Source of the DNA: Owenia fusiformis
Lineage: Eukaryota > Annelida > Polychaeta > Sabellida > Oweniidae
Length of the DNA stretch: 64,000 bases
NCBI GenBank assembly: GCA_903813345.2
Contig: CAIIXF020000007.1
Location: 9,803,730 to 9,867,729, forward strand
Direction of reading: 5' to 3'
In this document: piece by piece, positions 1 to 29,045 of the stretch
Layout of the letters: each line of letters begins with the position of its first letter
Position numbering within the stretch: the stretch's first letter is position 1
Program-made: the position numbers and the translations under genes
The notes under the pieces: generated by a model
The model's database searches: none
What the model was told of the DNA's origin: nothing
Seen by the model: the letters and a program-made list of their open reading frames with translations, nothing else

Positions 1-1184
1 GAGTTATTGGGTAACTTACTGAACTTTGAAAAGTGTTCCACTTACAGAAATGTTCATCTACTGGTTTTACAGCAGCTCGAAAGTAATTGATCAGTCCTTT
101 TTTCAGGACTTACCTCTGAAAATATGCAGTACATTTAGATAACATAATCTAAGAAATATGTCTTTCAACTTTGACATAAGTAACACTGAGGCCTGGAGCC
201 TGTCAGAATGTTAAGAATATGCAAATGAAATAAATGACAATAACATAAACCATAAGGAGAATGATTCCTGACATTCTTCAAGTGTTTTATGTAATTGAAC
301 TCTCCAACATTGAAACATACAGGTGTTACAATTAGTTCAGATTATAACATACTTTGCAACTATTTAAACACCTCATTTTAGAAATTGGAAAAAACTGAAA
401 AAGTGTGATATTTTGAATTTGTGCACTTTTCTTGGTATATAATGGTCAGACGGTTGAATAAGAATAATTTTGTACCCAGTTGAGAAAGTACCAAGAGGAG
501 AAAATATGTGATGTTTTTTGAAAACACAAATACATGAACTATGTTTATAAAAAGTCTCTTGGTCAAGACTCTGCCCCCCCCCCCCCTTCCCCCTTTTCTA
601 TTACTCCCACTAGAGTAAGAGACGGGGGAGGGGGTACAGGATGTTAATGCAAGATAACAAAATTGCCAATAATAACATTCCCAAAGTCCTCTCAAGGCCT
701 AGACACCAACAAGCTGTCAAGATGAGTTTTTTATTGTGCAGTTGACATTACACGTTCATGATGACCAATGTAAGGCAGTGAGAAGACAAGAGGGATGGCA
801 CTGTATAATGTAGAGCAAATGTTTTCATTTATTGCAGAATAACTCCCATGCACTTATTGGAAATTCAGAATATAGAAAATGATGTTTGTAAATTCTGAAT
901 TACAAGGCTGATTTCTTATTTTGAATTTCCTAGCATTTTTGAAATGATGATTTTAGTATTTTAGAATTTCATTCAGGCCTGCAAATACCAAAGATGAAAT
1001 AATTGAAAAAATCTGTGAAATGTAATTGATGAAGAAATCATTAACTTTTCAAAATTAACAAAAATCATCTAATATTTGAATTTCCAAAAATAGATTGCAT
1101 CAATGTTCAAACATTGAGATTTTTGACAGAATAAGCTATAAACTCTGTCCATTTGTTCTCATACCTGCTTGTGTATATCTGCAG
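1..1184 (+). other. Intron of receptor copy 1 (5' part outside window)
   Basis: This stretch precedes the first recognisable kinase exon and ends in an acceptor (tatctgcag). The exon that should come before it, carrying the GS domain and ATP-binding lobe (231 bp in copy 2), was not found here, so it lies upstream of the window. A C-run sits near 574-586. Nothing else recognisable is seen. Confidence 0.6.
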
Positions 1185-1352
1185 ATGTTGGTCCATGGAC
1201 TGAACTGTGGCTGGTAACAGATTACCATGAGAATGGGTCTCTCTTTGATTACCTCAACAAGTATGAGATTGATACTGCACGAATGATGAAGTTTGCTATA
1301 AGTATGGCAAATGGTATTGTGCATCTACATACAGAAATAACTGGAGTATTAG
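1185..1352 (+). CDS. Copy 1 exon: L45 loop and kinase N-lobe/C-lobe junction
   Basis: This 168-bp exon has a phase 1 entry and phase 1 exit, acceptor ctgcag and donor gtatag. It begins [11 protein letters not shown] and ends at the start of GKPAIAH. Bases 1185-1276 match the equivalent copy 2 exon at 91 of 92 positions by hand count; the remaining 76 bases match at only about 60%. Confidence 0.92.
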
Positions 1353-4300
1353 GTATAGGTTTTGATTTTACTATGTTTGCAGACTAATTCTAAACATGTA
1401 TATTCCAAAAAGGATCTTTGAATCAAAGGGGAATTTTCTTGAAAATGTTCAGTGCTGGGTTATACTTTGAAAATAGCAATGAATTAAAGAAAAGAAAACT
1501 ACTAGATAATATTCTGTTTTGCATAATATCAATTTTTTAGTTAAGTTCAGAAGTGGATTTGCACATATTTATTCTTCCAGGGAAACCAGCTATCGCACAC
1601 AGAGATCTGAAATCAAAAAATATTCTTGTTAAGTCAAACCACACATGTTGCATAGCAGATTTAGGTATGTAGCTTAAGTGACTGATTTCATTTGAATTTG
1701 GTATTTACTTAATGACATTTTTATTGATGACCAAAACTATCCGAGTGTCTGATTTATCAACATATCATGTATTTTTATATCTGAGTTTCTGTGAAACATC
1801 TCTAAGCCCAAAAGCATCTCAAAAGTAAAAAAGGTTTTCTCTGCATGAGAGCTATAATTTCTCAGATATTGTGACAAGTTTTATTTATTTATTTGGACTA
1901 TTCTGGCATACTGTTTGTAAATACAGATCAAATCTTTTGCAACAGGATGCAACTGGTCTGTATGTCCTATTGTCAGATTATTCAACCTGAAAAGTCGTCA
2001 GTGATTATCGACAATGTTACTTTTTGCTTAATTTTGTCATTTTGAGTTAATCATTTGTCTCACCTTTGTTTTGCCTGGAAAAAGTGTTCACTGTTGATAT
2101 AATTGCTATGATACTTCACGATACCTAGGAAATGTGAAATGTCAGGATGACCCAAATGTCATCTATCCTGGTGTCAGGATGTCTTGCTTGCATAAGGTTA
2201 CTCTACCCCTCATCTAGGATCTATAGGCTGTGATAATTTAAATGTTGATGCCTAAACAATGTAGTTAAGGGCACTCATACCCAATGCTTGATTGCCCTGT
2301 TGCTGCACAGATAGTACCTTCTGTATTTTTGTGCACTGATACCTGGAATAGGTACTGCCTTCCTTTTAGGAACCTACAATAAAAATTGATGAACAGCTGG
2401 CTGAGTCATTAATTCAAGACCAAATTACATTCATCGAGCATTTCTGGATTTTTTTTCATTTCTCACATCGAATAACTTGAAAAGTTGAGCGCTGCTTATT
2501 GCTAAGTAGTCGTAAATTGACATATTCATGTCAAGAAAGTAATTATTTGGAAATTTATCCATAATTGAGGTTATACAAAGCAGTAGAATGAATCAAGTCT
2601 ACTTTGTCTTCAAAGAAACACACTTTATTTATGGTTGATTAGCTTAATCACAAATCTTGCTAACTGTCTAGATGAAAAGAGCGCCAAATGTTAGCATTGA
2701 TAAATTAGATCAGCTCAGTTTGTGTTGAAAATGAGTCAATCTGCCTCAGAGTTACGATTTATGTTTTTCTTATGATTCTACTTTATTTGCCAATGACTTT
2801 TAATCAGGGACATTTTATGCTACATGTTATTTTAAAGCAGAACTCGGTTATCTTAGTTCAAAAAGTTCTAAAATCCACATGTTTTTTTTCATTTCCTGTT
2901 TATTTGGTGTAAAGGGGCAAGCTTTTTTAGACTGCTCTTATTTATTTAAGTTCTAATAATTATTTGACCACAAAAACAAATGCGTTTGTTTTGCCAATAT
3001 GTCATCTTCAATAAGGGACAATAGAATGAAAGTAAAGTCGTACAGATTATCTCTTAAGCTGTCATTAATCATGTTAATCCACCCATCATCACCAATTTTC
3101 CGTGATAATAAACCAATTTTCACAAAAAGTGCAGCATTTTATTCCAATTTTTACGACTAAATTGAATACTATTAGTCATGATTTACCTCTGAAAAGGAAA
3201 ACTGAGTCCCCTTGGGATTAGGATAATCCGAAAACAATGAAAATTTGAGGTCAAATATCTGATGTAAAAGCAACATTTTTTGATATGGTTACCATAATGT
3301 ACCAAAAGATTGGGGGATATTACATAATTGATCTCCATAAAAAAAATTACAAAATAAGAAAGGGATTATCTCACAATCCATTTGTTATAATCCATTATAT
3401 CTCATTATTCATGTTATTTTGTTATTTTTTCTTTTCTTGTTAATTAGTGAGGTGAATAATGTAGTGAAACTCAATATGCAAAAAGGTCAGGAGGGTTCTT
3501 GATTGTGCTATCCTATGGTATAGAGTCTCTTTAATAGGAAAAATGTTGATCATTAAAATTGCTGTTCTGCAGCACTGTCATGATCAAATAACATTAGTTT
3601 TAACAAATCAAATAGTACTAGTATTTTTTTAAATCTGCTGTTATTCCCAATATGACATGAAAAATACATAGAGAAATGTGTCCTCCCTGAAAATTATGAC
3701 CATTCCAATTTTGTTTGAAAATGCAATATGTTTACCTATGGTTTGCCCTGAAACTCAAAGAATAACATCATAACCAATAGGTGACACTTATAGACTATTA
3801 CCATTAGATTGATCTCTTGAAGTAAAATTGATTCCAGGGCTGGCCGTGCGGCATGAATCTTACACAGACACCGTTGACATATCACACAATGGTAACAGAG
3901 TTGGAACGAAACGCTACATGGCACCAGAGGTGTTAGATGATTCCATAAATCAAGCTCACTTCGAATCATTCAAGCGTGCAGATGTATATGCTATGGGGCT
4001 GGTGCTTTGGGAGATAGCACGAAGGTGTAATGGTTGTGGTTAGTATAAGACATATTTTTAAGGGTTGGGTTGAAATTGATAAAAAATAAGTGAGAGTGTA
4101 TGATTTGGGGTTGAGGATAATAACTTTGTTAAGTCTAGGTCAATATTTTCCTGGTTGAAATTTTGAGCCCCAGAATTAAAATGAATGGAATTTCACAATT
4201 TTATACAACAAACAAGTCCAAACAAGATTCTATAACTGCAATATGTTTTTAATTGTGTTTCTCGTAGTATGTTATCCATCTTTCAAAACAGATCTTCCAT

Positions 4301-7300
4301 CAAATATAGAATTCACAGTTGAACAAAAAGGTGTTGATATCTTATATTCAAAGGTCATTTATTAGAGTGTATTTTGATACAACATAATGACGTAATAATG
4401 TAAGCCTCTTAAAAAGGGACAACCTTCAAAATAAATCATGAATAGTGTTTTTATTTTTGCAAGTCACAAGAATCCCATATTTGTCATCTGACTATCAAAT
4501 TCTGTTATTGTGAACAATTCCAATGCTTAGAAAACTCAAAAAATGAAGAATTTAGGCCTAATGTTTAATATTTAAAACATAAGTATGAAACCCTAGTTGA
4601 TTAGAATACCGCCATATTACTAAGAGGAGAACTTTCCAGAGTCTAAGTATTACCTATTGGAATTGATGAATATGTGAAGTTTGATTACGTCAGAAAGGAA
4701 CACTAATTTGAGGTACAAAATTTATTCTACTTATTCGTTTCCCATTATTAGTAAATAGGAGTCTAAAGTTTACAAAATATTTAGACAACTATTTTTAGTG
4801 CATTGTCACAATACCAGTGACAGCCTCTGGTAAACAACAGTGTGAAATGTAAACACGCTTTCTTCGCAATTTGAAAATCTACTATTCTCACAATATCACA
4901 CAGACACTTAAAATATCAAGATTTTTTTGCCAAATTCCGAAATAGAGCAATGTAATGTTTGTTTGGCCAAGATGTTTAATTTTGAGACTCAGTCATTTGG
5001 ATATCATCGCAAAGGAATTTGATATAGAAATGGTGTGGATTGACCATCTTAGCCTGTCAACTTGTTCTTATCATAGCTCACAGTCCAAACAATGATGTCT
5101 GTACATAATCTATATTTGTATACAATTGTGTACTTTAGTGAGACTGAAACATCTCAAATCATTCATTTTCCAAATATATGTCATATTTGTTAATTTGCAA
5201 TGTCAAATTGTCTTTATTTATTCATAGAAAATAAATTGTTGAAATATAAGCAGCAAATATAATCTCCAAGTATGATGAAGTGATATTGCAAGAAATCCGG
5301 TCTCATTTAGGATACTTATTATGTACATTGTACTTTCATTGATTGCATGTGTATTGTACTTTCATGGATTGCATGTGTATTGTACTTTCATTGATTGTAT
5401 GTTTATTGTACTTTCATTGATTATATGTATGTTGTAGTTTCATTGATTGCATGGACATTATACTTTCATTGATTATGTGTACATTGTACTTTCACTGATT
5501 CTATATACATTGTATTTCCATAGATTGCATGTACATTGTAGTTTCATTGATTGTATGTGTATTGTACTTTCATTAATTGTATGTACCCTGTACTTTCATT
5601 GATTGTATATGTGTTGTACTTTCATCGATTGTATGGATATTGTATTTTCATTGATTATGTGTACATTGTACTTTCATTGATTGTACATACATTGTGCCCT
5701 TACAGCCCTTCTCCCATATCCACACATCACTACTCAAAACTATAATTTCATCCACACTCATTACATGGGATGGTGTGTTTCAGGTATAGTTGATGAGTAT
5801 CAACTCCCCTACTATGATCTGGTGCCCACTCTAATAACATGGGATGGTGTGTTTCAGGTATTGTTGATGAGTATCAACACCCCTACTATGATCTGGTGCC
5901 CACTGTAATAACATGGGATGGTGTGTTTCAGGTATTGTTGATGACTATAAACTCCCCTACTATGATCTGGTGCCCACTCTAATAACATGGGATGGTGTGT
6001 TTCAGGTATTGTTGATGAGTATAAACTCCCCTACTATGATCTGGTGCCTACTCTAATAACATGGGATGGTGTGTTTCAGGTATTGTTGATGAGTATCAAC
6101 TCCCCTACTATGATCTGGTGCCCACTCTAATAACATGGGATGGTGTGTTTCAGGTATTGTTGATGAGTATCAACTCCCCTACTATGATCTGGTGCCCACT
6201 CTAATAACATGGGTTGGTGTGTTTCAGGTATTGTTGATGAGTATCAACTCCCCTACTATGATCTGGTGCCCACTCTAATAACATGGGATGGTGTGTTTCA
6301 GGTATTGTTGATGAGTATCAACTCCCCTACTATGATCTGGTGCCCACTCTAATAACATGGGATGGTGTGTTTTAGGTATTGTTGATGAGTTTCAACTCCC
6401 TTGCTATGATCTGGTGCCCACTCTAATAACATGGGATGGTGTGTTTCAGGTATTGTTGATGACTATCAACTCCCCTACTATGATCTGGTGCTTACTCTAA
6501 TAACATGGGATGGTGTGTTTCAGGTATTGTTGATGAGTATCAACTCCCCTACTATGATCTGGTGCCTACTCTAATAACATGGGATGGTGTGTTTCAGGTA
6601 TTGTTGATGAGTATCAACTCCCCTACTATGATCTGGTGCCCACTCTTATAACATGGGATGGTGTGTTTTAGGTATTGTTGATGAGTATCAACTCCCCTAC
6701 TATGATCTGGTGCCCACTCTAATAACATGCCATGGTGTGTTTCAGGTATTGTTGATGAGTATCAACTCCCTTACTATGATCTGGTGCCCACTCTAATAAC
6801 ATGCAATGGTGTGTTTCAGGTATTGTTGATGAGTATCAACTCCCCTACTATGATCTGGTGCCCACTCTAATAACATGGGATGGTGTGTTTCAGGTATTGT
6901 TGATGAGTATCAACTCCCCTACTATGATCTGGTGCCCACTCTAATAACATGGGCTGGTGTGTGTCAGGTATTGTTGATGAGTATCAACTCTCCTACTATG
7001 ATCTGGTGCCCACTCTAATAACATGGGATGGTGTGTTTCAGGTATTGTTGATGAGTATCAACTCCCCTACTTTGATCTGGTGCCCACTCTAATAACATGG
7101 GATGGTGTGTTTCAGGTATTGTTGATGAGTATCAACTCCCCTACTATGATCTGGTGCCCACTCTAATAACATGGGATGGTGTGTTTCAGGTATTGTTGAT
7201 GAGTATCAACTCCCCTACTATGATCTGGTGCCCACTCTAATAACATGGGATGGTGTGTTTCAGGTATTGTTGATGAGTATCAACTCCCCTACTATGATCT

Positions 7301-10300
7301 GGTGCCCACTCTAATAATGTGGGTTGGTGTGTTTCAGGTATTGTTGATGAGTATCAACTCCCCTACTATGATCTGGTGCCCACTCTAATAACATGGGATG
7401 GTGTGTTTCAGGTATTGTTGATGAGTATCATCTCCCCTACTATGATCTGGTGCCCACTCTAATAACGTGGGTTGGTGTGTTTCAGGTATTGTTGATGAGT
7501 ATCAACTCCCCTACTATGATCTGGTGCCCACTCTAATAACATGGGTTGGTGTGTTTCAGGTATTGTTGATGAGTATCAACTCCCCTACTATGATATGGTG
7601 CCCACTCTAATAACGTGGGATGGTGTGTTTCAGGTATTGTTGATGAGTATCAACTCCCCTACTATGATCTGGTGCCCACTCTAATAACATGCAATGGTGT
7701 GTTTCAGGTATTGTTGATGAGTATCAACTCTCCTACTATGATCTGGTGCCCACTCTATAATAACGCTACCCTAATAACATGGGATGGTGTGTTTCAGGTA
7801 TTGTTGATGAGTATCAACTCCCCTACTATGATTTGGTGCCCACTCTCATAACATGGGATGGTGTGTTTCAGGTATTGTTGATGAGTATCAACTCCCCTAC
7901 TATGATCTGGTGCCCACTCTAATAACATGGGATGGTGTGTTTTAGATATTGTTGATGAGTATCAACTCCCCTACTATGATCTGGTGCCCACTCGAATAAC
8001 ATGGGATGGTGTGTTTCAGGTATTGTTGATGAGTATCAACTCCCCTACTATGATCTGGTGCCCACTCTAATAACATGGGATGGTGTGTTTTAGATATTGT
8101 TGATGAGTATCAACTCCCCTACTATGATCTGGTGCCCACTCTAATAACATGGGATGGTGTGTTTCAGGTATTGTTGATGAGTATCAACTCCCCTACTATG
8201 ATCTGGTGCCCACTCTAATAACATGGGATGGTGTGTTTCAGGTATTGTTGATGAGTATCAACTCCCCTACTATGATCTGGTGCCCACTCTAATAACATGG
8301 GATGGTGTGTTTTAGGTATTGTTGATAAGTATCAACTCCCCTTCTATGATCTGGTGCCCACTCTAATAACATGGGATGGTGTGTTTCAGGTATTGTTGAT
8401 GAGTATCAACTCCCTTACTATGATCTGGTGCCCACTTTAATAACATGCAATGGTGTGTTTCAGGTATTGTTGATGAGTATCAACTCCCCTACTATGATCT
8501 GGTGCCCACTCTAATAACATGGGTTGGTGTGTTTCAGGTATTGTTGATGAGTATCAACTCCCCTAGTATGATCTGGTGTCCACTCTAATAACATGGGATG
8601 GTGTGTTTCAGGTATTGTTGATGAGTATCAACTCCCCTACTATGATCTGGTCCCCACTCTAATAACATGGGATGGTGTGTTTCAGATATTGTTGATGAGT
8701 ATCAACTCCCCTACTATGATCTGGTGCCCACTCTAATAACATGGGATGGTGTGTTTCAGGTATTGTTGATGAGTATCAACTCCCCTACTAGGTGCCCACT
8801 CTAATAACATGGGATGGTGTGTTTCAGGTATTGTTGATGAGTATCAACTCCCCTACTATGATCTGGTGCCCACTCTAATAACATGGGATGGTGTGTTTTA
8901 GGTATTGTTGATGAGTATCAACTCCCCTTCTATGATCTGGTGCCCACTCTAATAACATGGGATGGTGTGTTTTAGGTATTGTTGATGAGTATCAACTCCC
9001 CTACTATGATCTGGTGCCCACTCTAATAACGTGGGTTGGTGTGTTTCAGGTATTGTTGATGAGTATCAACTCCCCTACTATGATCTGGTGCCCACTCTAA
9101 TAACGTGGGTTGGTGTGTTTCAGGTATTGTTGATGAGTATCAACTCCCCTACTATGATCTGGTGCCCACTCTAATAACATGGGATGGTGTGTTTCAGGTA
9201 TTGTTGATGAGTATCAACTCCCCTACTATGATCTGGTGCCCACTCTAATAACATGGGATGGTGTGTTTCAACTATTGTTGATGAGTATCAACTCCCTTAC
9301 TATGATCTGGTGCCCACTCTAATAACATGGGATGGTGTGTTTCAGGTATTGTTGATGAGTATCAACTCCCCTACTATGATCTGGTGCCCACTCTAATAAC
9401 ATGGGATGGTGTGTTTCAGGTATTGTTGATGAGTATCAACTCCCCTACTATGATCTGGTGCCCACTCTAATAACATGGGTTGGTGTGTTTCAGGTATTGT
9501 TGATGAGTATCAACTCCCCTACTTTGATCTGGTGCCCACTCTAATAACATTGGATGGTGTGTTTCAGGTATTGTTGATGAGTATCAACTCCCCTACTATG
9601 ATCTGGTGCCCACTCTAATAACATGGGATGGTGTGTTTCAGGTATTGTTGATGAGTATCAACTCCCCTACTATGATCTGGTGCCCACTTTAATAACATGC
9701 AATGGTGTGTTTCAGGTATTGTTGATGAGTATCAACTCCCCTACTATGATCTGGTGCCCACTCTAATAACATGGGATGGTGTGTTTTAGGTATTGTTGAT
9801 AAGTATCAACTCCCCTACTATGATCTGGTGCCCACTCTTATAACATGGGATGGTGTGTTTCAGGTATTGTTGATGAGTATCAACTCCCCTACTATGATCT
9901 GGTGCCCACTTTAATAACATGCAATGGTGTGTTTCAGGTATTGTTGATGAGTATCAACTCCCCTACTATGATCTGGTGCCCACTCTAATAACGTGGGTTG
10001 GTGTGTTTCAGGTATTGTTGATGAGTATCAACTCCCCTACTATGATCTGGTGCCCACTCTAATAACATGGGATGGTGTGTTTCAGGTATTGTTGATGAGT
10101 ATCAACTCCCCTACTATGATCTGGTGCCCACTCTAATAACATGGGATGGTGTGTTTCAGGTATTGTTGATGAGTATCAACTCCCCTACTATGATCTGGTG
10201 CCCACTCTAATAACATGGGATAGTGTGTTTCAGGTATTGTTGATGAGTATCAACTCCCCTACTATGATCTGGTGCCCACTCTAATAACATGGGATGGTGT

Positions 10301-13300
10301 GTTTCAGGTATTGTTGATGAGTATCAACTCCCCTACTATGATCTGGTGCCCACTCTAATAACATGGGATGGTGTGTTTCAGGTATTGTTGATGAGTATCA
10401 ACTCCCCTACTATGATCTGGTGCCCACTCTAATAACATGGGATGGTGTGTTTCAGGTATTGTTGATGAGTATCAACTCCCCTACTATGATCTGGTGCCCA
10501 CTCTAATAACATGGGTTGGTGTGTTTCAGGTATTGTTGATGAGTATCAACTCCCCTACTTTGATCTGGTGCCCACTCTAATAACATGGGATGGTGTGTTT
10601 CAGGTATTGTTGATGAGTATCAACTCCCCTACTATGATCTGGTGCCCACTCTAATAACATGGGATGGTGTGTTTCAGGTATTGTTGATAAGTATCAACTC
10701 CCCTACTATGATCTGGTGCCCACTCTAATAACATGGGATGGTGTGTTTCAGGTATTGTTGATGAGTATCAACTCCCCTACAATGATTTGGTGCCCACTCT
10801 AATAACATGCAATGGTGTGTTTCAGGTATTGTTGATGAGTATCAACTCTCCTACTATGATCTGGTGCCCACTCTAATAACATGGGATGGTGTGTTTCAGG
10901 TATTGTTGATGAGTATCAACTCCCCTACTATGATCTGGTCCCCACTCTAATAACATGCAATGGTGTGTTTCAGGTATTGTTGATGAGTATCAACTCTCCT
11001 ACTATGATCTGGTGCCCACTCTAATAACGTGGGTTGGTGTGTTTCAGGTATTGTTGATGAGTATCAACTCCCCTACTATGATCTGGTGCCCACTCTAATA
11101 ACGTGGGTTGGTGTGTTTCAGGTATTGTTGATGAGTATCAACTCCCCTACTATGATCTGGTGCCCACTCTAATAACATGGGATGGTGTGTTTCAGGTATT
11201 GTTGATGAGTATCAACTCCCCTACTATGATCTGGTGCCCACTCTAATAACATGGGATGGTGTGTTTCAACTATTGTTGATGAGTATCAACTCCCTTACTA
11301 TGATCTGGTGCCCACTCTAATAACATGGGATGGTGTGTTTCAGGTATTGTTGATGAGTATCAACTCCCCTACTATGATCTGGTGCCCACTCTAATAACAT
11401 GGGATGGTGTGTTTCAGGTATTGTTGATGAGTATCAACTCCCCTACTATGATCTGGTGCCCACTCTAATAACATGGGTTGGTGTGTTTCAGGTATTGTTG
11501 ATGAGTATCAACTCCCCTACTTTGATCTGGTGCCCACTCTAATAACATTGGATGGTGTGTTTCAGGTATTGTTGATGAGTATCAACTCCCCTACTATGAT
11601 CTGGTGCCCACTCTAATAACATGGGATGGTGTGTTTCAGGTATTGTTGATGAGTATCAACTCCCCTACTATGATCTGGTGCCCACTTTAATAACATGCAA
11701 TGGTGTGTTTCAGGTATTGTTGATGAGTATCAACTCCCCTACTATGATCTGGTGCCCACTCTAATAACATGGGATGGTGTGTTTTAGGTATTGTTGATAA
11801 GTATCAACTCCCCTACTATGATCTGGTGCCCACTCTTATAACATGGGATGGTGTGTTTCAGGTATTGTTGATGAGTATCAACTCCCCTACTATGATCTGG
11901 TGCCCACTTTAATAACATGCAATGGTGTGTTTCAGGTATTGTTGATGAGTATCAACTCCCCTACTATGATCTGGTGCCCACTCTAATAACGTGGGTTGGT
12001 GTGTTTCAGGTATTGTTGATGAGTATCAACTCCCCTACTATGATCTGGTGCCCACTCTAATAACATGGGATGGTGTGTTTCAGGTATTGTTGATGAGTAT
12101 CAACTCCCCTACTATGATCTGGTGCCCACTCTAATAACATGGGATGGTGTGTTTCAGGTATTGTTGATGAGTATCAACTCCCCTACTATGATCTGGTGCC
12201 CACTCTAATAACATGGGATAGTGTGTTTCAGGTATTGTTGATGAGTATCAACTCCCCTACTATGATCTGGTGCCCACTCTAATAACATGGGATGGTGTGT
12301 TTCAGGTATTGTTGATGAGTATCAACTCCCCTACTATGATCTGGTGCCCACTCTAATAACATGGGATGGTGTGTTTCAGGTATTGTTGATGAGTATCAAC
12401 TCCCCTACTATGATCTGGTGCCCACTCTAATAACATGGGATGGTGTGTTTCAGGTATTGTTGATGAGTATCAACTCCCCTACTATGATCTGGTGCCCACT
12501 CTAATAACATGGGTTGGTGTGTTTCAGGTATTGTTGATGAGTATCAACTCCCCTACTTTGATCTGGTGCCCACTCTAATAACATGGGATGGTGTGTTTTA
12601 GGTATTGTTGATGAGTATCAACTCCCCTACTATGATCTGGTGCCCACTCTAATAACATGGGATGGTGTGTTTTAGGTATTGTTGATAAGTATCAACTCCC
12701 CTACTATGATCTGGTGCCCACTCTAATAACATGGGATGGTGTGTTTCAGGTATTGTTGATGAGTATCAACTCCCCTACTGTGATCTGGTGCCCACTCTAA
12801 TAACATGGGATGGTGTGTTTCAGGTATTGTTGATGAGTATCAACTCCCCTACTATGATCTGGTGCCCACTCTAATAACATGGGATGGTGTGTTTCAGGTA
12901 TTGTTGATAAGTATCAACTCCCCTACTATGATCTGGTGCCCACTCTAATAACATGGGATGGTGTGTTTTAGATATTGTTGATGAGTATCAACTCCCCTAC
13001 TATGATCTGGTGCCCACTCGAATAACATGGGATGGTGTGTTTCAGGTATTGTTGATGAGTATCAACTCCCCTACTATGATCTGGTGCCCACTCTAATAAC
13101 ATGGGATGGTTTGTTTCAGGTATTGTTGATGAGTATCAACTCCCCTACAATGATTTGGTGCCCACTCTAATAACATGCAATGGTGTGTTTCAGGTATTGT
13201 TGATGAGTATCAACTCTCCTACTATGATCTGGTGGCCACTCTAATAATAACATGGGATGGTGTGTTTCAGGTATTGTTGATGAGTATCAACTCCCCTACT

Positions 13301-16300
13301 ATGATCTGGTCCCCACTCTAATAACATGGGATGGTGTGTTTCAGGTATTGTTGATGAGTATCAACTCCCCTACTATGATCTGGTGCCCACTCTAATAACA
13401 TGGGATGGTGTGTTTTAGGTATTGTTGATAAGTATCAACTCCCCTACTATGATCTGGTGCCCACTCTAATAACATGGGATGGTGTGTTTCAGGTATTGTT
13501 GATGAGTATCAACTCCCCTACTGTGATCTGGTGCCCACTCTAATAACATGGGATGGTGTGTTTCAGGTATTGTTGATGAGTATCAACTCCCCTACTATGA
13601 TCTGGTGCCCACTTTAATAACATGCAATGGTGTGTTTCAGGTATTGTTGATGAGTATCAACTCCCCTACTATGATCTGGTGCCCACTCTAATAACATGGG
13701 ATGGTGTGTTTTAGATATTGTTGATGAGTATCAACTCCCCTACTATGATCTGGTGCCCACTCGAATAACATGGGATGGTGTGTTTCAGGTATTGTTGATG
13801 AGTATCAACTCCCCTACTATGATCTGGTGCCCACTCTAATAACATGGGATGGTTTGTTTCAGGTATTGTTGATGAGTATCAACTCCCCTACAATGATTTG
13901 GTGCCCACTCTAATAACATGCAATGGTGTGTTTCAGGTATTGTTGATGAGTATCAACTCTCCTACTATGATCTGGTGGCCACTCTAATAATAACATGGGA
14001 TGGTGTGTTTCAGGTATTGTTGATGAGTATCAACTCCCCTACTATGATCTGGTCCCCACTCTAATAACATGGGATGGTGTGTTTCAGGTATTGTTGATGA
14101 GTATCAACTCCCCTACTATGATCTGGTGCCCACTCTAATAACATGGGATGGTGTGTTTTAGGTATTGTTGATAAGTATGAAGTCCCCTACTATGATCTGG
14201 TGCCCACTCTAATAACATGGGATGGTGTGTTTCAGGTATTGTTGATGAGTATCAACTCCCCTACTGTGATCTGGTGCCCACTCTAATAACATGGGATGGT
14301 GTGTTTCAGGTATTGTTGATGAGTATCAACTCCCCTACTATGATCTGGTGCCCACTCTAATAACATGGGATGGTGTGTTTCAGGTATTGTTGATGAGTAT
14401 CAACTCCCCTACTATGATCTGGTGCCCACTCTAATAACATGGGATGGTGTGTTTCAGGTATTGTTGATGAGTATCAACTCCCCTACTATGATCTGGTGCC
14501 CACTCTAATAACATGGGATGGTGTGTTTCAGGTATTGTTGATGAGTATCAACTCCCCTACTATGATCTGGTGCCCACTCTAATAACATGGGTTGGTGTGT
14601 TTCAGGTATTGTTGATGAGTATCAACTCCCCTACTTTGATCTGGTGCCCACTCTAATAACATTTGATGGTGTGTTTCAGGTATTGTTGATGAGTATCAAC
14701 TCCCCTACTATGATCTGGTGCCCACTCTAATAACATGGGATGGTGTGTTTCAGGTATTGTTGATGAGTATCAACTCCCCTACTATGATCTGGTGCCCACT
14801 CTAATAACATGGGATGGTGTGTTTCAGGTATTGTTGATGAGTATCAACTCCCCTACTATGATCTGGTGCCCACTCTAATAACATGGGATGGTGTGTTTTA
14901 GGTATTGTTGATGAGTATCAACTCCCCTACTATGATCTGGTGCCCACTCTAATAACATGGGATGGTGTGTTTTAGGTATTGTTGATAAGTATCAACTCCC
15001 CTACTATGATCTGGTGCCCACTCTAATAACATGGGATGGTGTGTTTCAGGTATTGTTGATGAGTATCAACTCCCCTACTGTGATCTGGTGCCCACTCTAA
15101 TAACATGGGATGGTGTGTTTCAGGTATTGTTGATGAGTATCAACTCCCCTACTATGATCTGGTGCCCACTCTAATAACATGGGATGGTGTGTTTCAGGTA
15201 TTGTTGATAAGTATCAACTCCCCTACTATGATCTGGTGCCCACTCTAATAACATGGGATGGTGTGTTTTAGATATTGTTGATGAGTATCAACTCCCCTAC
15301 TATGATCTGGTGCCCACTCGAATAACATGGGATGGTGTGTTTCAGGTATTGTTGATGAGTATCAACTCCCCTACTATGATCTGGTGCCCACTCTAATAAC
15401 ATGGGATGGTTTGTTTCAGGTATTGTTGATGAGTATCAACTCCCCTACAATGATTTGGTGCCCACTCTAATAACATGCAATGGTGTGTTTCAGGTATTGT
15501 TGATGAGTATCAACTCTCCTACTATGATCTGGTGGCCACTCTAATAATAACATGGGATGGTGTGTTTCAGGTATTGTTGATGAGTATCAACTCCCCTACT
15601 ATGATCTGGTCCCCACTCTAATAACATGGGATGGTGTGTTTCAGGTATTGTTGATGAGTATCAACTCCCCTACTATGATCTGGTGCCCACTCTAATAACA
15701 TGGGATGGTGTGTTTCAGGTATTGTTGATGAGTATCAACTCCCCTACTATGATCTGGTGCCCACTCTAATAACATGGGATGGTGTGTTTCAGGTATTGTT
15801 GATGAGTATCAACTCCCCTACTATGATCTGGTGCCCACTTTAATAACATTGGATGGTGTGTTTCAGGTATTGTTGATGAGTATCAACTCCCCTACTATGA
15901 TCTGGTGACCACTCTAATAACATGGGATGGTGTGTTTCAGGTATTGTTGATGAGTATCAACTCCCCTACTATGATCTGGTGCCCACTCTAATAACATGGG
16001 TTGGTGTGTTTCAGGTATTGTTGATGAGTATGAACTCCCCTACTATGATCTGGTGCCCACTCTAATAACATGGGATGGTGTGTTTCAGGTATTGTTGATG
16101 AGTATCAACTCCCCTACTATGATCTGGTGCCCACTTTAATAACATGGGATGGTGTGTTTCAGGTATTGTTGATGAGTATCAACTCCCCTACTATGATCTG
16201 GTGCCCACTCTAATAACATGGGATGGTGTGTTTCAGGTATTGTTGATGAGTATCAACTCCCCTACTATGATCTGGTGCCCACTCTAATAACATGGGTTGG

Positions 16301-19300
16301 TGTGTTTCAGGTATTGTTGATGAGTATGAACTCCCCTACTATGATCTGGTGCCCACTTTAATAACATGCAATGGTGTGTTTCAGGTATTGTTGATGAGTA
16401 TCAACTCCCCTACTATGATCTGGTGCCCACTCTAATAACGTGGGTTGGTGTGTTTCAGGTATTGTTGATGAGTATCAACTCTCCGAATATGATCTGGTGC
16501 CCACTCTAATAACATGGGATAGTGTGTTTCAGGTATTGTTGATGAGTATCAACTCCCCTACTATGATCTGGTGCCCACTCTAATAACATGGGATGGTGTG
16601 TTTCAGGTATTGTTGATGAGTATCAACTCCCCTACTATGATTTGGTGCCCACTCTAATAACATGGGATGGTGTGTTTCAGGTATTGTTGATATGAGTATC
16701 AACTCCCCTACTATGATCTGGTGCCCACTCTAATAACATGGGATGGTGTGTTTTAGGTATTGTTGATGAGTATCAACTCCCCTACTATGATCTGGTGCCC
16801 ACTCTAATAACATGGGATGGTGTGTTTTAGGTATTGTTGATAAGTATCAACTCCCCTACTATGATCTGGTGCCCACTCTAATAACATGGGATGGTGTGTT
16901 TCAGGTATTGTTGATGAGTATCAACTCCCCTACTGTGATCTGGTGCCCACTCTAATAACATGGGATGGTGTGTTTCAGGTATTGTTGATGAGTATCAACT
17001 CCCCTACTATGATCTGGTGCCCACTCTAATAACATGGGATGGTGTGTTTCAGGTATTGTTGATAAGTATCAACTCCCCTACTATGATCTGGTGCCCACTC
17101 TAATAACATGGGATGGTGTGTTTCAGGTATTGTTGATGAGTATCAACTCTCCTACTATGATCTTGTGCCCACTCTAATAACATGGGATGGTGTGTTTTAG
17201 GTATTGTTGATGAGTATCAACTCCCCTACTATGATCTGGTGCCCACTCTAATAACATGGGATGGTGTGTTTTAGATATTGTTGATGAGTATCAACTCCCC
17301 TACTATGATCTGGTGCCCACTCTTATAACATGGGATGGTTTGTTTCAGGTATTGTTGATGAGTATCAACTCCCCTACAATGATTTGGTGCCCACTCTAAT
17401 AACATGCAATGGTGTGTTTCAGGTATTGTTGATGAGTATCAACTCTCCTACTATGATCTGGTGCCCACTCTAATAACATGGGATGGTGTGTTTTAGATAT
17501 TGTTGATGAGTATCAACTCCCCTACTATGATCTGGTGCCCACTCAAATAACATGGGATGGTGTGTTTCAGGTATTGTCGATGAGTATCAACTCCCCTACT
17601 ATGATCTGGTGCCCACTCTAATAACATGGGATGGTTTGTTTCAGGTATTGTTGATGAGTATCAACTCCCCTACAATGATTTGGTGCCCACTCTAATAACA
17701 TGCAATGGTGTGTTTCAGGTATTGTTGATGAGTATCAACTCTCCTACTATGATCTGGTGCCCACTCTAATAACATGGGATGGTGTGTTTCAGGTATTGTT
17801 GATGAGTATCAACTCCCCTACTATGATCTGGTCCCCACTCTAATAACATGGGATGGTGTGTTTCAGGTATTGTTGATGAGTATCAACTCCCCTACTATGA
17901 TCTGGTGCCCACTCTAATAACATGGGTTGGTGTGTTTCAGGTATTGTTGATGAGTATGAACTCCCCTACTATGATCTGGTGCCCACTTTAATAACATGCA
18001 ATGGTGTGTTTCAGGTATTGTTGATGAGTATCAACTCCCCTACTATGATCTGGTGCCCACTCTAATAACGTGGGTTGGTGTGTTTCAGGTATTGTTGATG
18101 AGTATCAACTCTCCGAATATGATCTGGTGCCCACTCTAATAACATGGGATGGTGTGTTTCAGGTATTGTTGATGAGTATCAACTCCCCTACTATGATCTG
18201 GTGCCCACTCTTATAACATGCAATGGTGTGTTTCAGGTATTGTTGATGAGTATCAACTCCCCTACTATGATCTGGTGACCACTCGAATAACATGGGATGG
18301 TGTGTTTCAGGTATTGTTGATGAGTATCAACTCCCCTACTATGATCTGGTGCCCACTCTAATAACATGGGAAGGTTTGTTTCAGGTATTGTTGATGAGTA
18401 TCAACTCCCCTACAATGATTTGGTGCCCACTCTAATAACATGCAATGGTGTGTTTCAGGTATTGTTGATGAGTATCACTTCTCCTACTATGATCTGGTGC
18501 CCACTCTAATAACATGGGATGGTGTGTTTCAGGTATTGTTGATGAGTATCAACTCCCCTACTATGATCTGGTGCCCACTCTAATAACATGGGATGGTGTG
18601 TTTCAGGTATTGTTGATGAGTATCAACTCTCCTACTATGATCTGGTGCCCACTCTAATAACATGGGATGGTGTGTTTCAGGTATTGTTGATGAGTATCAA
18701 CTCCCCTACTATCATCTGGTCCCCACTCTAATAACATGGGATGGTGTGTTTCAGGTATTGTTGATGAGTATCAACTCCCCTACTATGATCTGGTGCCCAC
18801 TCTAATAACATGGGATGGTTTGTTTCAGGTATTGTTGATGAGTATCAACTCCCCTACAATGATTTGGTGCCCACTCTAATAACATGCAATGGTGTGTTTC
18901 AGGTATTGTTGATGAGTATCAACTCTCCTACTATGATCTGGTGCCCACTCTAATAACATGGGATGGTGTGTTTCAGGTATTGTTGATGAGTATCAACTCC
19001 CCTACTATGATCTGGTGCCCACTCTAATAACATGGGTTGGTATGTTTCAGGTATTGTTGATGAGTATCAACTCCCCTACTATGATCTGGTGCCCACTTTA
19101 ATAACATGGGATGGTGTGTTTCAGGTATTGTTGATGAGTATCAACTCCCCTACTATGATCTGGTGCCCACTCTAATAACATTGGATGGTGTGTTTCAGGT
19201 ATTGTTGATGAGTATCAACTCCCCTACAATGATTTGGTGCCCACTCTAATAACATGCAATGGTGTGTTTCAGGTATTGTTGATGAGTATCAACTCTCCTA

Positions 19301-22300
19301 CTATGATCTGGTGCCCACTCTAATACCATGGGATGGTGTGTTTCAGGTATTGTTGATGAGTATCAACTCCCCTACTATGATCTGGTGCCCACTCTAATAA
19401 CATGGGTTGGTATGTTTCAGGTATTGTTGATGAGTATCAACTCCCCTACTATGATCTGGTGCCCACTTTAATAACATGGGATGGTGTGTTTCAGGTATTG
19501 TTGATGAGTATCAACTCCCCTACTATGATCTGGTGCCCACTCTAATAACATTGGATGGTGTGTTTCAGGTATTGTTGATGAGTATCAACTCCCCTACTAT
19601 GATCTGGTGCCCACTCTAATAACATGGGATGGTGTGTTTCAGGTATTGTTGATGAGTATCAACTCCCCTACTATGATCTGGTGCCCACTCTAATAACATG
19701 GGTTGGTATGTTTCAGGTATTGTTGATGAGTATCAACTCCCCTACTATGATCTGGTGCCCACTCTAATAACATGGGTTGGTATGTTTCAGGTATTGTTGA
19801 TGAGTATCAACTCCCTTACTATGATCTGGTGCCCACTCTAATAACATGGGATGGTGTGTTTCAGGTATTGTTGATGAGTATCAACTCCCCTACTATGATC
19901 TGGTTCCCTCAGATCCCAGCATTGAAGACATGAAGAAAGTTGTGTGTGCAGACAAACTCAGACCTTCAGTTCCAAACAGATGGCAAACAAATGAGGTACG
20001 TTTATAATGATGAAAAATTATTCTTGTCTTTGTTAAAATACTTTTATTCTATTTGTGTTGATGACACCTGAAAGGAAATTCTGTAAACAGTTGTGTTCTT
20101 CATTCTATAGTGACGCAGTAAAATTTTGAACCTCTCTCCAACACATAGATTTGGATATTGCTATTTTTACAGCCTTCAATATTATTGGTAATCAAGATAC
20201 TGATAAAAATTGATTTTGCATCTGTAATGTCATTGATTCTGTTTGATTCTATGAAGAATGAGAAATCTTATCAGGCATATGCTTGTGCTACCCCTAAAGA
20301 CTTGGCGAGGATAAGCTTATTGATTTTTGAACTTGTAATTTGGTGATGTATCATGATATTTTGTATCATGAATGTACTTGGATCCTGGGAAAGGATTTCA
20401 CCAAGTAAATTCTTACTAATACTAATTGTTATTTTGGCCAAAAATGAAAACGAATGTTCAATGCCCATTGTGTCGCTATAGAATGAAGTACACAACTATT
20501 TACACATTTTCCTATTCATCAGGTATCATCTACACATATATGAATATATAGGGGTTATGCACTGGGAGGTTTTGGATACAGGGAATATCCCGAGGGATAT
20601 ACAATATATTTTCCTGAGGAACCGAAGGGACCGAGGGAAGATGTATTGTATATCCCAAGGGACATTCCATGTATCCAAACCGACCGTGCATAACTGGTGT
20701 ATCTCATACTTGAGTGGGTTTAGGGTAGATATAACAGGGCTGTCAACTTGGGACCACCTAATATGAGTGACTTACAAATGTTGGACACCGAAGTCCAAAT
20801 CTGAACACTTTTGTCCAAATTTTGAACACCTTTGGCCAACTTTTAAACACCTTTGGCCAAAGTTTGAGCACCTTTGCTAAACTTTTATAACCTCAAATTT
20901 TTCGCGCTCGCTACGCTCGCTATGTCGTCAACGGGGGGGGGGGGGGGGGGGTAGGTACGAAAATTTCCAATGAACATGCGTGACATATACGGGATTCGCG
21001 TGACAAATCCGAACAAATTGCGTTCGTTTTTTTCCGACGTTCGTATTTTTACCGTATCATAAACATATTTTGAAAAAATTTTTACAGAAACATATTTGCG
21101 TGACAATTACCAGGTAAAATGCGTATTTGCGTGACATTTTGTGTCACGCAAAAAAAACTGGCGTGACTTCAAATTCTTCAGCAAATGCGTGACAAATACG
21201 CAAATTGCGGGACAGTTGACAGGCCTGTATAACCTTTTCCACCTTTTTCAAATGACAAGATATTTATATTTAACATTTTCGTAATATTCTTTTTGTTCAA
21301 TATAAACTTTTGAAAAATTCCCGGGAGCGGGATGGATATATTATATCTGCCCGCATTTGGCCTGGAGCGGGACATATACAATATATCCTGCCCGCTCCTC
21401 AGATACGATATATATTCCCGGCTGATATCTACCCCAAACCCACTCAAGTATGAGATACAACTGAATACCCAACATGGCTCGGTTTATAGATTTTAAAAAA
21501 TGACTGTAAACTCCATATCTGGAGTCTGCGTAATTTAGGGATCATGCACACTTACTAGGGGTCTTGCGATTGCATGGATTTGCTCGAGCAATTAGACACG
21601 ATACGAACGTATCGATAGTAAACTTGAATAAAGGTTAAAATTCTGTATCGTTTTTAACCTCCCAAATCAGCAAAATCATTGTATCTTCCTATTTTTCCAT
21701 TTTGTTATTTTCCTTGTGTAATCTGGCATAGAATGTACCCCCAATAAAGGATATCTGGTTTTGTTTAATGAAAAAACTTGGAAAAAGAATGTGAAATAAA
21801 AATATAAACCATGAATGGACACCGGACACTAGTGGACATCAGTTGTAGGAAGACATTCATAGCTTCATACTGTTTCACAAGTTCGAAATTCGGCGGTTGG
21901 TACATTTGTCTTGTTTACCCATATATTTTTAAAAAATAAAAAAGTATTTGTTACGCTCTTACATTGCTCGTATCGTTTGTATCATATCGTGGGGTAAATA
22001 TCGTTGCTGGTATTGAAATTAAAGGTAATGTATCGTGGGACCCCTAACACTTACATTCTCATGGAACCTTTTTATTATTATTATTCATAAATACTATGAG
22101 CCAATTGTGGAAAGATACAGTGACCTAAGGCAGTAATGTCAATGCTCTCATTTTATTTTTGGATTTTCGTCAAAAATTTATTTACGATAGCATTCTTTAC
22201 AACCAAACAAGTTTGAATCTAGTTATTTTCCAAGGAGCCATCTATGTTTTCCTTTAGTGGGAACTACTTTTTGCATTTATGTATGAGGGTTGTTCAATAA

Positions 22301-22622
22301 ATACCAATAAAAATGGCTGTACTTATTTACCTATTTATATTTTTTTCAAACTTCCAATTGTGCTTTATTGAACTTTTAAGTTCTATCATGAGACAACTAT
22401 TTTAGATGACATTTTGGGGGAAAATTTTTATCTGTTTGGATATTGCTTACACGCTTTCGAATACTTTACATTTTTCTTCTACAATTTGTATTTCAGGCCA
22501 TGCAAGTTATGGGTAAAGTTATGAAAGAATGCTGGTTTCACAACGGTGCTGCACGCCTCACTGCACTGAGAGTCAAGAAAACTCTTTCCTCGCTAGGGGA
22601 ATCAATGAACCTGAAGAAATAA
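1185..22622 (+). CDS. TGFBR1-like: TGF-beta/activin type I receptor kinase, copy 1 (5' partial, spliced)
   Basis: Five exons join in phase (1185-1352, 1581-1664, 3838-4038, 19865-19995, 22497-22622) into 236 codons plus stop. They encode the kinase domain from the L45 loop ([11 protein letters not shown]) through HRDLKSKN (catalytic loop), IADLGLAV (the DLG form of the DFG motif used by type I receptors), [28 protein letters not shown] and the C-terminal [11 protein letters not shown] segment. The family phosphorylates R-Smads at the plasma membrane after type II receptor activation. The L45 region and [11 protein letters not shown] place it with ALK4/5/7 (Smad2/3 class) rather than BMP receptors. 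Exon sizes of 168 and 131 bp equal those of vertebrate TGFBR1, whereas the intron inside ADLG|LAV is different and shared with copy 2. No frameshift or lost catalytic residue is seen, so it looks functional. The intron before exon 19865-19995 is 15.8 kb because of a 74-bp exon-derived array. Confidence 0.92.
1581..1664 (+). CDS. Copy 1 exon: catalytic loop
   Basis: This 84-bp exon (acceptor ttccag, donor gtatgt) encodes [18 protein letters not shown] and continues to the DLG motif, with catalytic Asp in HRDLKSKN. The exon ends inside the DLG glycine codon, a position absent from vertebrate TGFBR1 but shared with copy 2 (48122-48205). Confidence 0.92.
1665..3837 (+). other. Intron of copy 1
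   Basis: This 2.2 kb AT-rich intron separates the catalytic-loop exon from the activation-segment exon. I see no tandem repeat, inverted repeat or coding segment in it. Confidence 0.7.
3838..4038 (+). CDS. Copy 1 exon: activation segment and APE motif
   Basis: This 201-bp exon (acceptor attccag, donor gttagt) encodes the activation loop (LAVRHES..DTVDI), the [16 protein letters not shown] segment and the kinase F-helix region ending ARRCNGCG. The donor gttagt is less canonical than the gtaagg in copy 2. Confidence 0.92.
4039..5320 (+). other. Start of the 15.8 kb intron of copy 1
   Basis: This 1.3 kb lies between the donor and the first tandem repeats. I see nothing recognisable in it. The equivalent whole intron in copy 2 (48689-49785) is only 1.1 kb. 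Confidence 0.6.
5321..5696 (+). repeat. 26-bp minisatellite, about 14 copies
   Basis: Degenerate head-to-tail copies of a 26-bp unit of the form tgtactttcattgattgcat plus six bases fill this stretch, directly before the 74-bp array. The reverse complement of the unit (ending caatcaatgaaagtaca) matches the arrays at 26910-29045, so one repeat family sits at two sites in opposite orientation. Confidence 0.9.
5763..19908 (+). repeat. 74-bp exon-boundary minisatellite, about 191 copies
   Basis: About 191 head-to-tail copies of a 74-bp unit fill 14.1 kb of a copy 1 intron. The 74-bp period was checked from successive cag positions (5781, 5855, 5929). Each unit holds about 30 nt of intron ending in gatggtgtgtttcag, then 44 nt identical or nearly identical to the start of the next coding exon (encoding [15 protein letters not shown]). 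The final unit runs without a break into the real exon at 19865, so the array arose by amplification of that intron/exon junction. Since 74 is not a multiple of three and each unit has taataa, no frame stays open. Unit variants (gtgggttgg, tactttgat, ttttagatattg, ttgataag, catgcaatgg) recur in blocks, showing higher-order duplication. Rare units carry small indels, such as 77 bp at about 13231 and a deletion near 8787. Confidence 0.97.
19865..19995 (+). CDS. Copy 1 exon: kinase C-lobe, source of the 74-bp array
   Basis: This 131-bp exon enters in phase 1 and leaves in phase 0, with donor gtacgt. It encodes [19 protein letters not shown], then [20 protein letters not shown] to QTNE. Its acceptor and first 40 nt are indistinguishable from array units; it departs from them at ggttccctcagatcc. 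If an upstream decoy acceptor were joined to this exon without further splicing, the message would shift frame or meet a TAA. Confidence 0.95.
19996..20553 (+). other. Intron of copy 1, 5' part
   Basis: This is AT-rich intron sequence between the exon donor and a cluster of inverted repeats. I see no further structure. Confidence 0.55.
20554..21461 (+). repeat. Nested inverted-repeat (MITE) cluster in copy 1 intron
   Basis: Three nested or adjacent inverted pairs are visible. A 141-bp palindrome (20554-20694) starts gttatgcac and ends gtgcataac. An outer pair of about 36 bp (20697-20732 and 21424-21461, atctcatacttgagtgggtt) encloses the rest. Inside, an inverted pair built on acagggctgtcaact lies near 20735 and 21208-21230. 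A run of about 19 G lies at 20934-20951. This looks like serial insertion of non-autonomous DNA elements. Confidence 0.7.
21550..22060 (+). repeat. Putative short-TIR MITE
   Basis: Ends related to acttactaggggtc (about 21550) and its inverse gacccctaacacttac (about 22045) bracket AT-rich sequence with several gtatcg-type words. The arms are short and imperfect, so this is tentative. Confidence 0.35.
22497..22622 (+). CDS. Copy 1 last exon, kinase C-terminus
   Basis: This 126-bp exon (acceptor tttcag) enters in phase 0 and ends with TAA at 22620-22622. It encodes [33 protein letters not shown] and the tail GESMNLKK. Size and content match the last coding exon of vertebrate type I receptors and copy 2 (50861-50986). 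Confidence 0.94.
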
Positions 22623-26909: not shown

Positions 26910-29045
26910 ACAGTCATTAAGAGCAAACTGTACATCGAATCTATGAAAGCACGATGTACATGCAATCAAAGAAAGAACAGGATATGTGAAATAAATGAGA
27001 GGACAATGACATATAATCAATGAGAACAGACTGTACAGCCAATCAATGGAAGAACAATACACTGTACCTGCAATCAAAGAGAGTACAATGTTTATGATTT
27101 CATTGAGAGCACAATGTGCACACAGTCAATCGGAACACAATGCATATGCAATTAATGAGAGCACAATGTACATTCAATCAATGAGAGCACAATGTACACA
27201 CAATCAATTGAACACAATGCATATGCACACAATGAGAGCACAATGTCCACACAATCAATTGAACACAATGCATATGCAATTAATGAGAGCACAATGAACA
27301 TTCAATCAATGAGAGCACAATGTACATACAGTCAATTGAACACAATGCATATGCAATCAATGAGATCACAATGTACACACAATCAATTGAACACAATGCA
27401 TATGCAATCAATGAGAGCACAATGTCCACACAATCAACTGAACACAATGCATATGCAATTAATGAGAGCACAATGAACATTCAATCAATGAGAGCACAAT
27501 GTACATACAGTCAATTGAACACAATGCATATGCAATCAATGAGATCACAATGTACACACAATCAATTGAACACAATGTATATGCAGTCAATGAGAGCACA
27601 ATGTACACACAATCAATTGAACACAATGTATGTGCAATCAATGAGAGCACAATGAACTTACAATCAATTGAACTTAATGATATGCAGCCAATGAGCACAA
27701 TGTACACACAATCGATTGAACACAATCTGACAATGCATATGCAATCAATTAAGAGCACAATATACATATGATTAATAAGAGTATAATGTAAATGCGACCA
27801 ATTAAAAAGCACAATGTACATATCATTTATAAGAGTATAATGTAAATGCGACCAATGAGAGCACAGTGAACATAAAATCAATGAAAGAAAATACACATTC
27901 ATTCAATGTGAGTACAATGTACATATTATAATCGATGAACAGAAAATGCACGTCCAATTAACCCTTTCACGACGATAGGCTCCATATGGAGCCCTATTAT
28001 GTAATACCTTTCAGGACGATAGGCTCCTTTTGGCACCATTATTTTTATCTATATACATCAATGAAATGACAATATCTCCAGTTCTATTCAGTATTTTTAC
28101 ACCAAATTTTGACAAGTTGTTCTAATGTGATAATCCTTACTAGAAATTGTATTTCAGTATAAAATTCAGGGTATAGGTCCCGGGGCGTAGGTATTTTGCA
28201 GTTTTCCCCTAAAAACTGCTCTTACTTATCCGTCACCAGGGCCAACATTTTCCTCTTATACTCATGTTGGGAAAGGGTTAATGAGAGTGCAATGTACAAA
28301 TAATCAATGAAAGCAAAATGCACAATTGGTCAATGTGATTACAAAGTACATAATCAATGAAAGCAAAATGCACATTCAATCAATGAGAGTGCAATGTACA
28401 AACAATCAATGAACGCAAAATGCACATTCAATCAATGTGAGTGGAATTCACAAACAATCAATGAAAGCTAAATGCACATTCAATCAATGAGAGTGCAATG
28501 TACAAACAATCAATGAATGCAAAATGCACATTCAATCAATGTGAGTGGAATTCACAAACAATCAATGAAAGCTAAATGCACATTCAATCAATGAGAGTGC
28601 AATGTACAAACAATCAATGAATGCAAAATGCACATTCAATCAATGTGAGTGGAATTCACAAACAATTAATGAAAGCAAAATGGACATTCAATCAATGAGA
28701 GTGCAACGTACAGACAATCAATGAAAGTAAAATGCACATTCAATCAATGAGAGTGCAATGTACAGACAATCAATAAAAGCAAAATGCACATTCAATCAAT
28801 GAGAGTGCAACGTACAGATAATCAATGAAAGTAAAATGCACATTCAATCAATGAGAGTGCAATGTACAGACAATCAATAAAAGCAAAATGCACATTCAAT
28901 CAATGAGAGTGCAACGTACAGATAATCAATGAAAGTAAAATGCACATTCAATCAATGAGAGTGCAATGTACAGAGAATCAATAAAAGCAATGAGAGTTTA
29001 CATGTACGTGAGAAATGAAAGTAGACTGTACATGCAATCAATATG
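26910..29045 (+). repeat. 26-bp minisatellite family, two blocks
   Basis: Units of 25-26 bp such as caatcaatgagagcacaatg plus tacaca fill about 26910-27957 and 28282-29045. Neighbouring units alternate in two types, giving a 52-bp dimer in many places (caatcaatgaaagcaaaatg with caatcaatgagagtgcaatg). The left edge is degenerate. Many overlapping short frames on both strands are translations of the repeat. A TTAA-flanked element at 27962-28277 splits the array. The family is the inverse of the array at 5321-5696. Confidence 0.93.
27962..28277. mobile_element. piggyBac-like MITE inside the 26-bp minisatellite
   Basis: The 316-bp insert starts CCCTTTC and ends GAAAGGG and is flanked by TTAA on both sides (27958-27961 and 28278-28281). 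TTAA duplication and CCC-type ends are the hallmarks of piggyBac elements. Removing the insert and one TTAA rebuilds a normal repeat unit (caattaatgagagtgcaatg), so the insertion point is exact. It has no transposase frame. Confidence 0.75.

Follow-up and report, generated by a model that had tools for sequence, protein, structure and literature searches.

A 191-unit minisatellite copying an intron-exon boundary in a type I TGF-beta receptor-like gene of the annelid Owenia fusiformis

How can a receptor gene carry an intron that offers about 190 copies of its own splice acceptor? We analyzed 64,000 nucleotides of the Owenia fusiformis genome (GenBank assembly GCA_903813345.2, contig CAIIXF020000007.1, positions 9,803,730 to 9,867,729 of the forward strand; hereafter the window), which hold two copies of the kinase exons of a predicted type I TGF-beta receptor. 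In copy 1, the intron between exons C and D contains a tandem array of a 74-bp unit that includes the acceptor of exon D. Minisatellite-like duplications of intron-exon boundaries are known from amphioxus as mirages (PMC3087553; this and the other papers are cited from excerpts of their text). We consider it probable that the array is a neutral mirage minisatellite, begun across the acceptor, grown by unequal exchange or slippage and tolerated by splicing.

A boundary array in a receptor gene

Tandem Repeats Finder (TRF), combined with a unit-by-unit parse, places 191 units of approximately 74 bp at 5752-19908, within a few bases of the initial annotation, which had counted about 191 copies from position 5763. 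Each unit consists of an intron end with a branch-like CTAATAAC, followed by GATGGTGTGTTTCAG and then by GTATTGTTGATGAGTATCAACTCCCCTACTATGATCTGGTGCCC, the start of exon D, in proportions of about 30 bp of intron end to 44 bp of exon start. As in a mirage, the unit crosses the intron-exon boundary including the splice signal, and the array ends in the genuine exon: the final unit is the true start of exon D, the first 44 nt of which belong to the array, exactly as had been proposed from the sequence. The features of the two gene copies, all on the plus strand, are as follows.

1185-1352 (+): exon A of copy 1
1581-1664 (+): HRD exon of copy 1
3838-4038 (+): exon C of copy 1; its donor GTG/GTTAGT opens the 15.8-kb intron
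5752-19864 (+): 74-bp boundary minisatellite in the intron between exons C and D of copy 1; 190 decoy units and the intron part of the last unit
9000-10600 (+): 1,601-bp stretch of the array with an exact second copy 27 units further on, at 10998-12598; probable block duplication
19865-19995 (+): true exon D of copy 1, 131 nt, ALK4/5/7-like kinase; donor GAG/GTACGT
22497-22622 (+): last exon E of copy 1, with the stop codon
44728-50986 (+): kinase exons of copy 2, whole span; no boundary array at exon D
44728-44958 (+): VAIK exon of copy 2
47643-47810 (+): exon A of copy 2
48122-48205 (+): HRD exon of copy 2
48488-48688 (+): exon C of copy 2
49786-49916 (+): exon D of copy 2
50861-50986 (+): exon E of copy 2

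Because each unit is a copy of the boundary, nearly every one carries an acceptor like the real one. Of the 191 units, 189 retain the AG and 108 match GATGGTGTGTTTCAG exactly, and the units share a mean identity of 97.7% with their consensus (67 distinct units, 52 of them identical to it), which agrees with the earlier statement that the intron holds some 190 acceptors almost identical to the true one. The spacing from unit to unit is exactly 74 bp in 184 of 190 cases, the remainder being 68, 76, 77 (three times) and 90 bp.

The unit is confined to this locus, as far as the non-N sequence of the 498-Mb assembly shows. Exact matches to a 26-base boundary core number 141 genome-wide, with none on the reverse strand and none for a reversed control, and the window alone accounts for all 141. 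Likewise, the intronic half gives 188 matches at up to three mismatches (0 reverse, 0 control), again 188 in the window alone. Since the genome-wide counts equal those of the window, a satellite that is widespread independently of exon D is ruled out, and the link between array and exon drawn in the initial annotation holds. A separate 26-bp minisatellite at 5320-5695 adjoins the array; it matches opposite-strand 26/52-bp minisatellites at 26929-28987 with 71-84% identity, and these form a dispersed minisatellite family.

The host gene is predicted to encode an ALK4/5/7-like type I TGF-beta receptor. The closest match in the Protein Data Bank (PDB) of the protein encoded by exons C-E of copy 1 is TGF-beta receptor type 1 (E 6.5e-73), followed by the weaker matches BMPR1B (E 4.4e-61) and ACVR1 (E 2.6e-54); chains of ALK4 and ALK7 are absent among the matches listed. 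The HRD motif, a GS segment and the sequence GLPLLVQRT, expected of the ALK4/5/7 type, are all present. Upstream exons are open in locus L001 and comprise a membrane segment, a GS-like segment (match C7:9801508) and the kinase lysine exon.

The exon C-D intron measures 15,826 bp in copy 1 vs 1,097 bp in copy 2, and the repeat listing of the window contains no tandem array in the copy 2 intron (48689-49785), in line with the earlier description of a 1.1-kb intron with nothing comparable. An array of 53 bp x 6 in copy 2 (47304-47622) was considered as a mirage and rejected, as it ends 20 bp before exon A (47643) and contains no exon sequence. Over exons C-E, dN between the copies is 0.159 with saturated synonymous sites (pS 0.79), from which the pair is judged to be under purifying selection; because of this selection, copy 1 is probably spliced correctly.

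Identity between the two copies reaches about 95% across the lysine exon and into exon A, inside which the match stops (window 1170-1287 vs 47628-47745; L001 7701-7961 vs window 44717-44976). Exons D and E match at 77-81%. The stretches of high identity look like gene conversion tracts.

Growth of the array and choice of the acceptor

Within the array, stretches recur exactly over 1,601 bp at a distance of 27 units, 857 bp at about 31, 526 bp at 10 and 506 bp at 21. Exact repeats of this length point to recent block duplication by unequal exchange, or may in part be a product of assembly; in the one assembly analyzed they fit length instability. A strong higher-order repeat was rejected: the share of identical units has a weak peak at lag 27 (20%), and elsewhere among lags of 30 or less it is roughly 4-13%. 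The two exact 1,601-bp copies could also be an assembly repeat, in which case the true array would be much shorter or blocks would have been repeated by the assembler, and one amphioxus mirage appears to be aberrantly assembled in a genome draft (PMC3087553). Against this stand the 67 distinct units and irregular spacings, within a contig of 39.8 Mb, and the smaller boundary arrays in other genes, each below 600 bp. We therefore regard an artefact as improbable.

For the neutral mirage that we favor, we envisage an initial tandem duplication of the acceptor together with 44 nt from the start of exon D, for which a short CC match shared by exon and intron may have been the occasion. Blockwise growth by unequal exchange or slippage, with up to 27 units at a time, would then have led to 191 units. 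The first unit matches the consensus at 70 of 74 positions and the last unit at 73 of 74, and over the 44 exon sites the mismatches to the copy 2 exon number 7 in the first unit, 8 in the consensus and 9 in the real exon. This is suggestive only, but the first unit may preserve an older state of the sequence.

The decoy exon halves give no sign of coding selection, as there is no excess of variation at codon position 3 (20, 17 and 14 variant alleles at positions 1, 2 and 3, with 14 sites each). Selection for or against the decoy splice signals left no trace in the comparison of site variability either: variability at the branch-like and AG sites is not significantly reduced relative to other sites, 19% of random sets of nine sites having as few alleles.

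What would happen if a decoy were used depends on what follows it. With the array retained, 153 of the 190 units would lead to a first stop after 41 codons (range over all units 9-72), so that in this case the reading frame is indeed interrupted, as had been claimed. The taataa of the unit, to which the interruption had in part been attributed, lies outside the exon D reading frame, however, and 182 of 190 units contain the arrangement AG, 63 nt, GT. In 181 of 190 units this segment is open in the exon frame, keeps phase 1-1 and codes for 21 residues, so truncation of the receptor, which had been expected unless a decoy was removed by further splicing, is not a necessary outcome.

We scored donors by a simple count against a 9-base consensus. 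By this measure the 10 real donors of the two receptor genes score 5-8 of 9. The donor of the 63-nt segment, ATG/GTGTGT, is present 155 times and agrees with the consensus at 7 of 9 positions. Pseudo-exons bounded by the CAG/GTATTG acceptor and this donor might thus sometimes be included, adding 21 residues each and yielding receptor variants. Yet neighboring pseudo-exons would leave an intron of 11 nt between them. Since such an intron is too short for splicing, adjacent pseudo-exons cannot both be used, which restricts inclusion to non-adjacent units. The decoy exon halves lack the signature of coding constraint described above, an open frame of 63 nt is likely to arise by chance, since 42 nt derive from a real exon, and copy 2 does without such an array. 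We consider such inclusion of pseudo-exons very improbable. Also very improbable is an extension of it, in which the array would be a tuning device: its length would set the rate of 63-nt pseudo-exons or failed junctions, isoforms or dose would vary among individuals, and the smaller arrays would act likewise throughout the genome.

A further role could follow from the junction TTTCAG/GTATTG, where acceptor and donor-like sequence are joined; CAG/GTATTG is found in 163 array 9-mers. If such sites acted as in the juxtaposed acceptor-donor ratchet points reported in long Drosophila introns (PMC8605326), the 15.8-kb intron would be removed in many steps, and use of a decoy would be harmless because it is corrected. 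GTATTG is a weak donor, though (6 of 9, with the three outer intron positions off), the AG/GT follows merely from an exon that begins with GT, and the variability of the branch-like and AG sites given above shows no significant conservation. Stepwise removal of the intron is accordingly unlikely in our view.

Under the neutral mirage reading, exon definition would pick the last acceptor, the sole one joined to a complete 131-nt exon with the donor GAG/GTACGT. The array would be tolerated because only this outermost copy is joined to a complete exon with a donor of its own. Decoy junctions, when formed, might be re-spliced through the regenerated G/GTATTG site, and transcripts that are not would be destroyed as frame-shifted RNA. 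The array itself would have no useful function.

Several observations weigh against this account. The array contains 167 donor-like 9-mers at 7 of 9, within the 5-8 range of real donors, so consensus strength alone fails to explain why the pseudo-exons are ignored. The exon D acceptor is pyrimidine-poor, with 9 of 18 positions vs 8-13 at the other acceptors measured, and the real site is therefore not specially strong. Variant units per site are fewer in the exon half (1.8%) than in the intron half (3.0%), which may reflect a weak constraint on the decoy exon half; alleles per site are more numerous in the exon half (1.21) than in the intron half (0.93). Finally, correct splicing is deduced from the selection that acts on the gene, but an array that is young could be doing harm already. 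Folding of two short stretches, run without a control, revealed no feature that distinguishes the real acceptor.

As local sequence cannot separate the real site from the decoys, context must direct the choice. A gene under purifying selection with about 190 near-perfect copies of one of its acceptors hence represents a strong natural experiment on splice-site choice.

Boundary arrays elsewhere in the genome

In this assembly, boundary arrays are also seen at other exons of kinases and myosins, and the phenomenon is not unique to this gene. The kinase sample comprised 70 loci, 30 cut out from matches and 40 regions hand-picked from further match rows (26 of the 40 chosen for holding several exon matches), and the myosin sample 20 hand-picked regions; both were chosen independently of repeats. 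Among the first 30 kinase loci, L003, L006, L019, L030 and L032 were read in frame and other array-bearing ones, such as L008, L011 and L018, were left out. A survey of sugar transporters was dropped, as its 9 matches were nearly all long single frames. Boundary arrays were found in at least 5 of the 70 kinase loci, counting array-bearing loci read in frame, and in 2 of the 20 myosin regions (L077 and L089):

L019 (kinase): donor side, 49 bp x 8.4; no family match covers this exon, which makes the case less certain, and it is excluded from the seven arrays counted below
L033 (kinase): donor side, 26 bp x 19.5
L046 (kinase): acceptor side, 52 bp, with L046 and L093 together holding about 11 units
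L058 (kinase): acceptor side, 42 bp x 3, diverged
L068 (kinase): acceptor side 86 bp x 3.8 and donor side 71 bp x 2
L077 (myosin): donor side, 34 bp x 4, with about 4 nt of exon in the unit
L089 (myosin): acceptor side, 61 bp x 4.5, before ATYARDALCKAIYSRLF

The arrays of L030 and L035, read in frame, were rejected because they do not lie at a boundary (that of L035 follows the stop codon); those of L034, L037, L072 and others were judged off-boundary by position only. In L046, a second minisatellite (1061-1963; 51 bp x 15, with 2.2 further copies) lies in the intron that immediately follows the kinase exon with the mirage, and this exon is thus flanked by two arrays.

Placement was analyzed in 60 of the kinase and myosin regions (L033-L092; 118 kb, 136 exon matches), with arrays merged at a unit of at least 20 bp and a TRF score of at least 80, and with the ends of family matches, which are not proven splice sites, as exon ends. 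The 26 merged arrays cover 4.8% of this DNA. Exon-match ends are straddled by 7 of them, vs 9.7 +/- 2.1 expected from 2,000 random placements, which gave 7 or fewer straddling arrays in 293 cases and 7 or more in 1,884; no array lies wholly inside an exon match (0 of 26 vs 2.2 expected). With 7 observed and 9.7 expected at random, the idea that boundary arrays are drawn to exon edges was discarded; they are neither attracted to exon-match ends nor clearly avoid them. This is most simply read as the outcome of a high minisatellite load, in which arrays may begin at any point and persist wherever a complete exon is left at the edge.

Some further features were recorded. In the window, a 21-bp x 19.5 array (59522-59930) lies in an open minus-strand frame with SVSPSPI repeats, and long open frames of 743, 515 and 709 aa at 32392-36155 (-) and L001 4779-6908 (+) resemble, by eye, LINE-type reverse transcriptases. 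A single myosin head segment (profile about 18-84) is matched twelve times within 8 kb at C9:37986009-37994334, possibly a set of alternative muscle myosin exons. The erythrocruorin linker domain PF16915, which points to annelids, is matched three times in this genome, in a cluster; a linker-like protein from this cluster has only three PDB matches, all of them weak and to haemoglobin linker chains (E 0.0006-0.003). GC content is 0.36 over 32 loci of the genome, and this base composition together with the linker genes makes amphioxus an unlikely source. Contigs C1-C12 measure 32-62 Mb, and contigs C200 and C266 25 kb; a search of the assembly for COX1 gave no match.

Comparison with known systems

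Repeats at or near splice sites have been described in several settings. In human segmentally duplicated genes, internal tandem repeats occur at exon-intron boundaries (PMC2812944). They resemble the Owenia array in being boundary minisatellites that alter gene structure, but measure about 30 bp x 4 on average; new introns are said to form from some of them, and the excerpts describe no giant array. The VNTR6-1 repeat in intron 6 of human TERT, from a study of TERT splicing, is likewise an intronic minisatellite (38 bp, 24-66.5 units), but is not described there as a copy of a splice boundary (PMC11830802). Recursive-splice ratchet points share an acceptor directly followed by donor-like sequence and lie within long introns (PMC8605326), whereas the AG/GT of the present array is a by-product of exon sequence with a weak donor. 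Among annelids, intronic minisatellites are reported in earthworm metallothionein genes (PMC12783039). Among the papers listed in our literature search, limited to open-licence ones, none was seen to concern a boundary array of this size or annelid mirages.

The closest counterparts are the amphioxus mirages of the globin genes BflGb6 and BflGb9 and, earlier, of Adh3 (PMC3087553), which show that exon-boundary arrays had been described, contrary to the novelty claimed at first, though the excerpts give far fewer units. The BflGb6 mirage has 6 and 3 units of 150-160 bp in two haplotypes; Adh3 units measure 10-72 bp, with length instability described, and the Adh3 data together with globin RT-PCR suggest that regular splicing is undisturbed by mirages (PMC3087553). 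The PGBD5 mirage is an imperfect triplication of 3 x 108 bp, and a troponin C case is cited with it (PMC3902484).

That 7 of the 272 exon-match ends surveyed in an annelid genome carry boundary arrays suggests that mirages are not confined to lancelets. They may instead be what a high minisatellite load leads one to expect, and they could feed intron gain and boundary shifts. With the amphioxus mirages the Owenia array shares tandem boundary-spanning units, a splice site in many of them, a position on the acceptor side (acceptor or donor side in the class) and a real copy that is left in place; the amphioxus mirages also vary in unit number. It differs in extent, with 191 units and 14.1 kb in an annelid genome vs 6, 3 or 3 x 108 bp there. 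It is thus probably a locus-specific extreme case of the mirage class, in what is probably a new animal group for a class that is probably common in this genome; the surprise is one of size and frequency rather than of principle.

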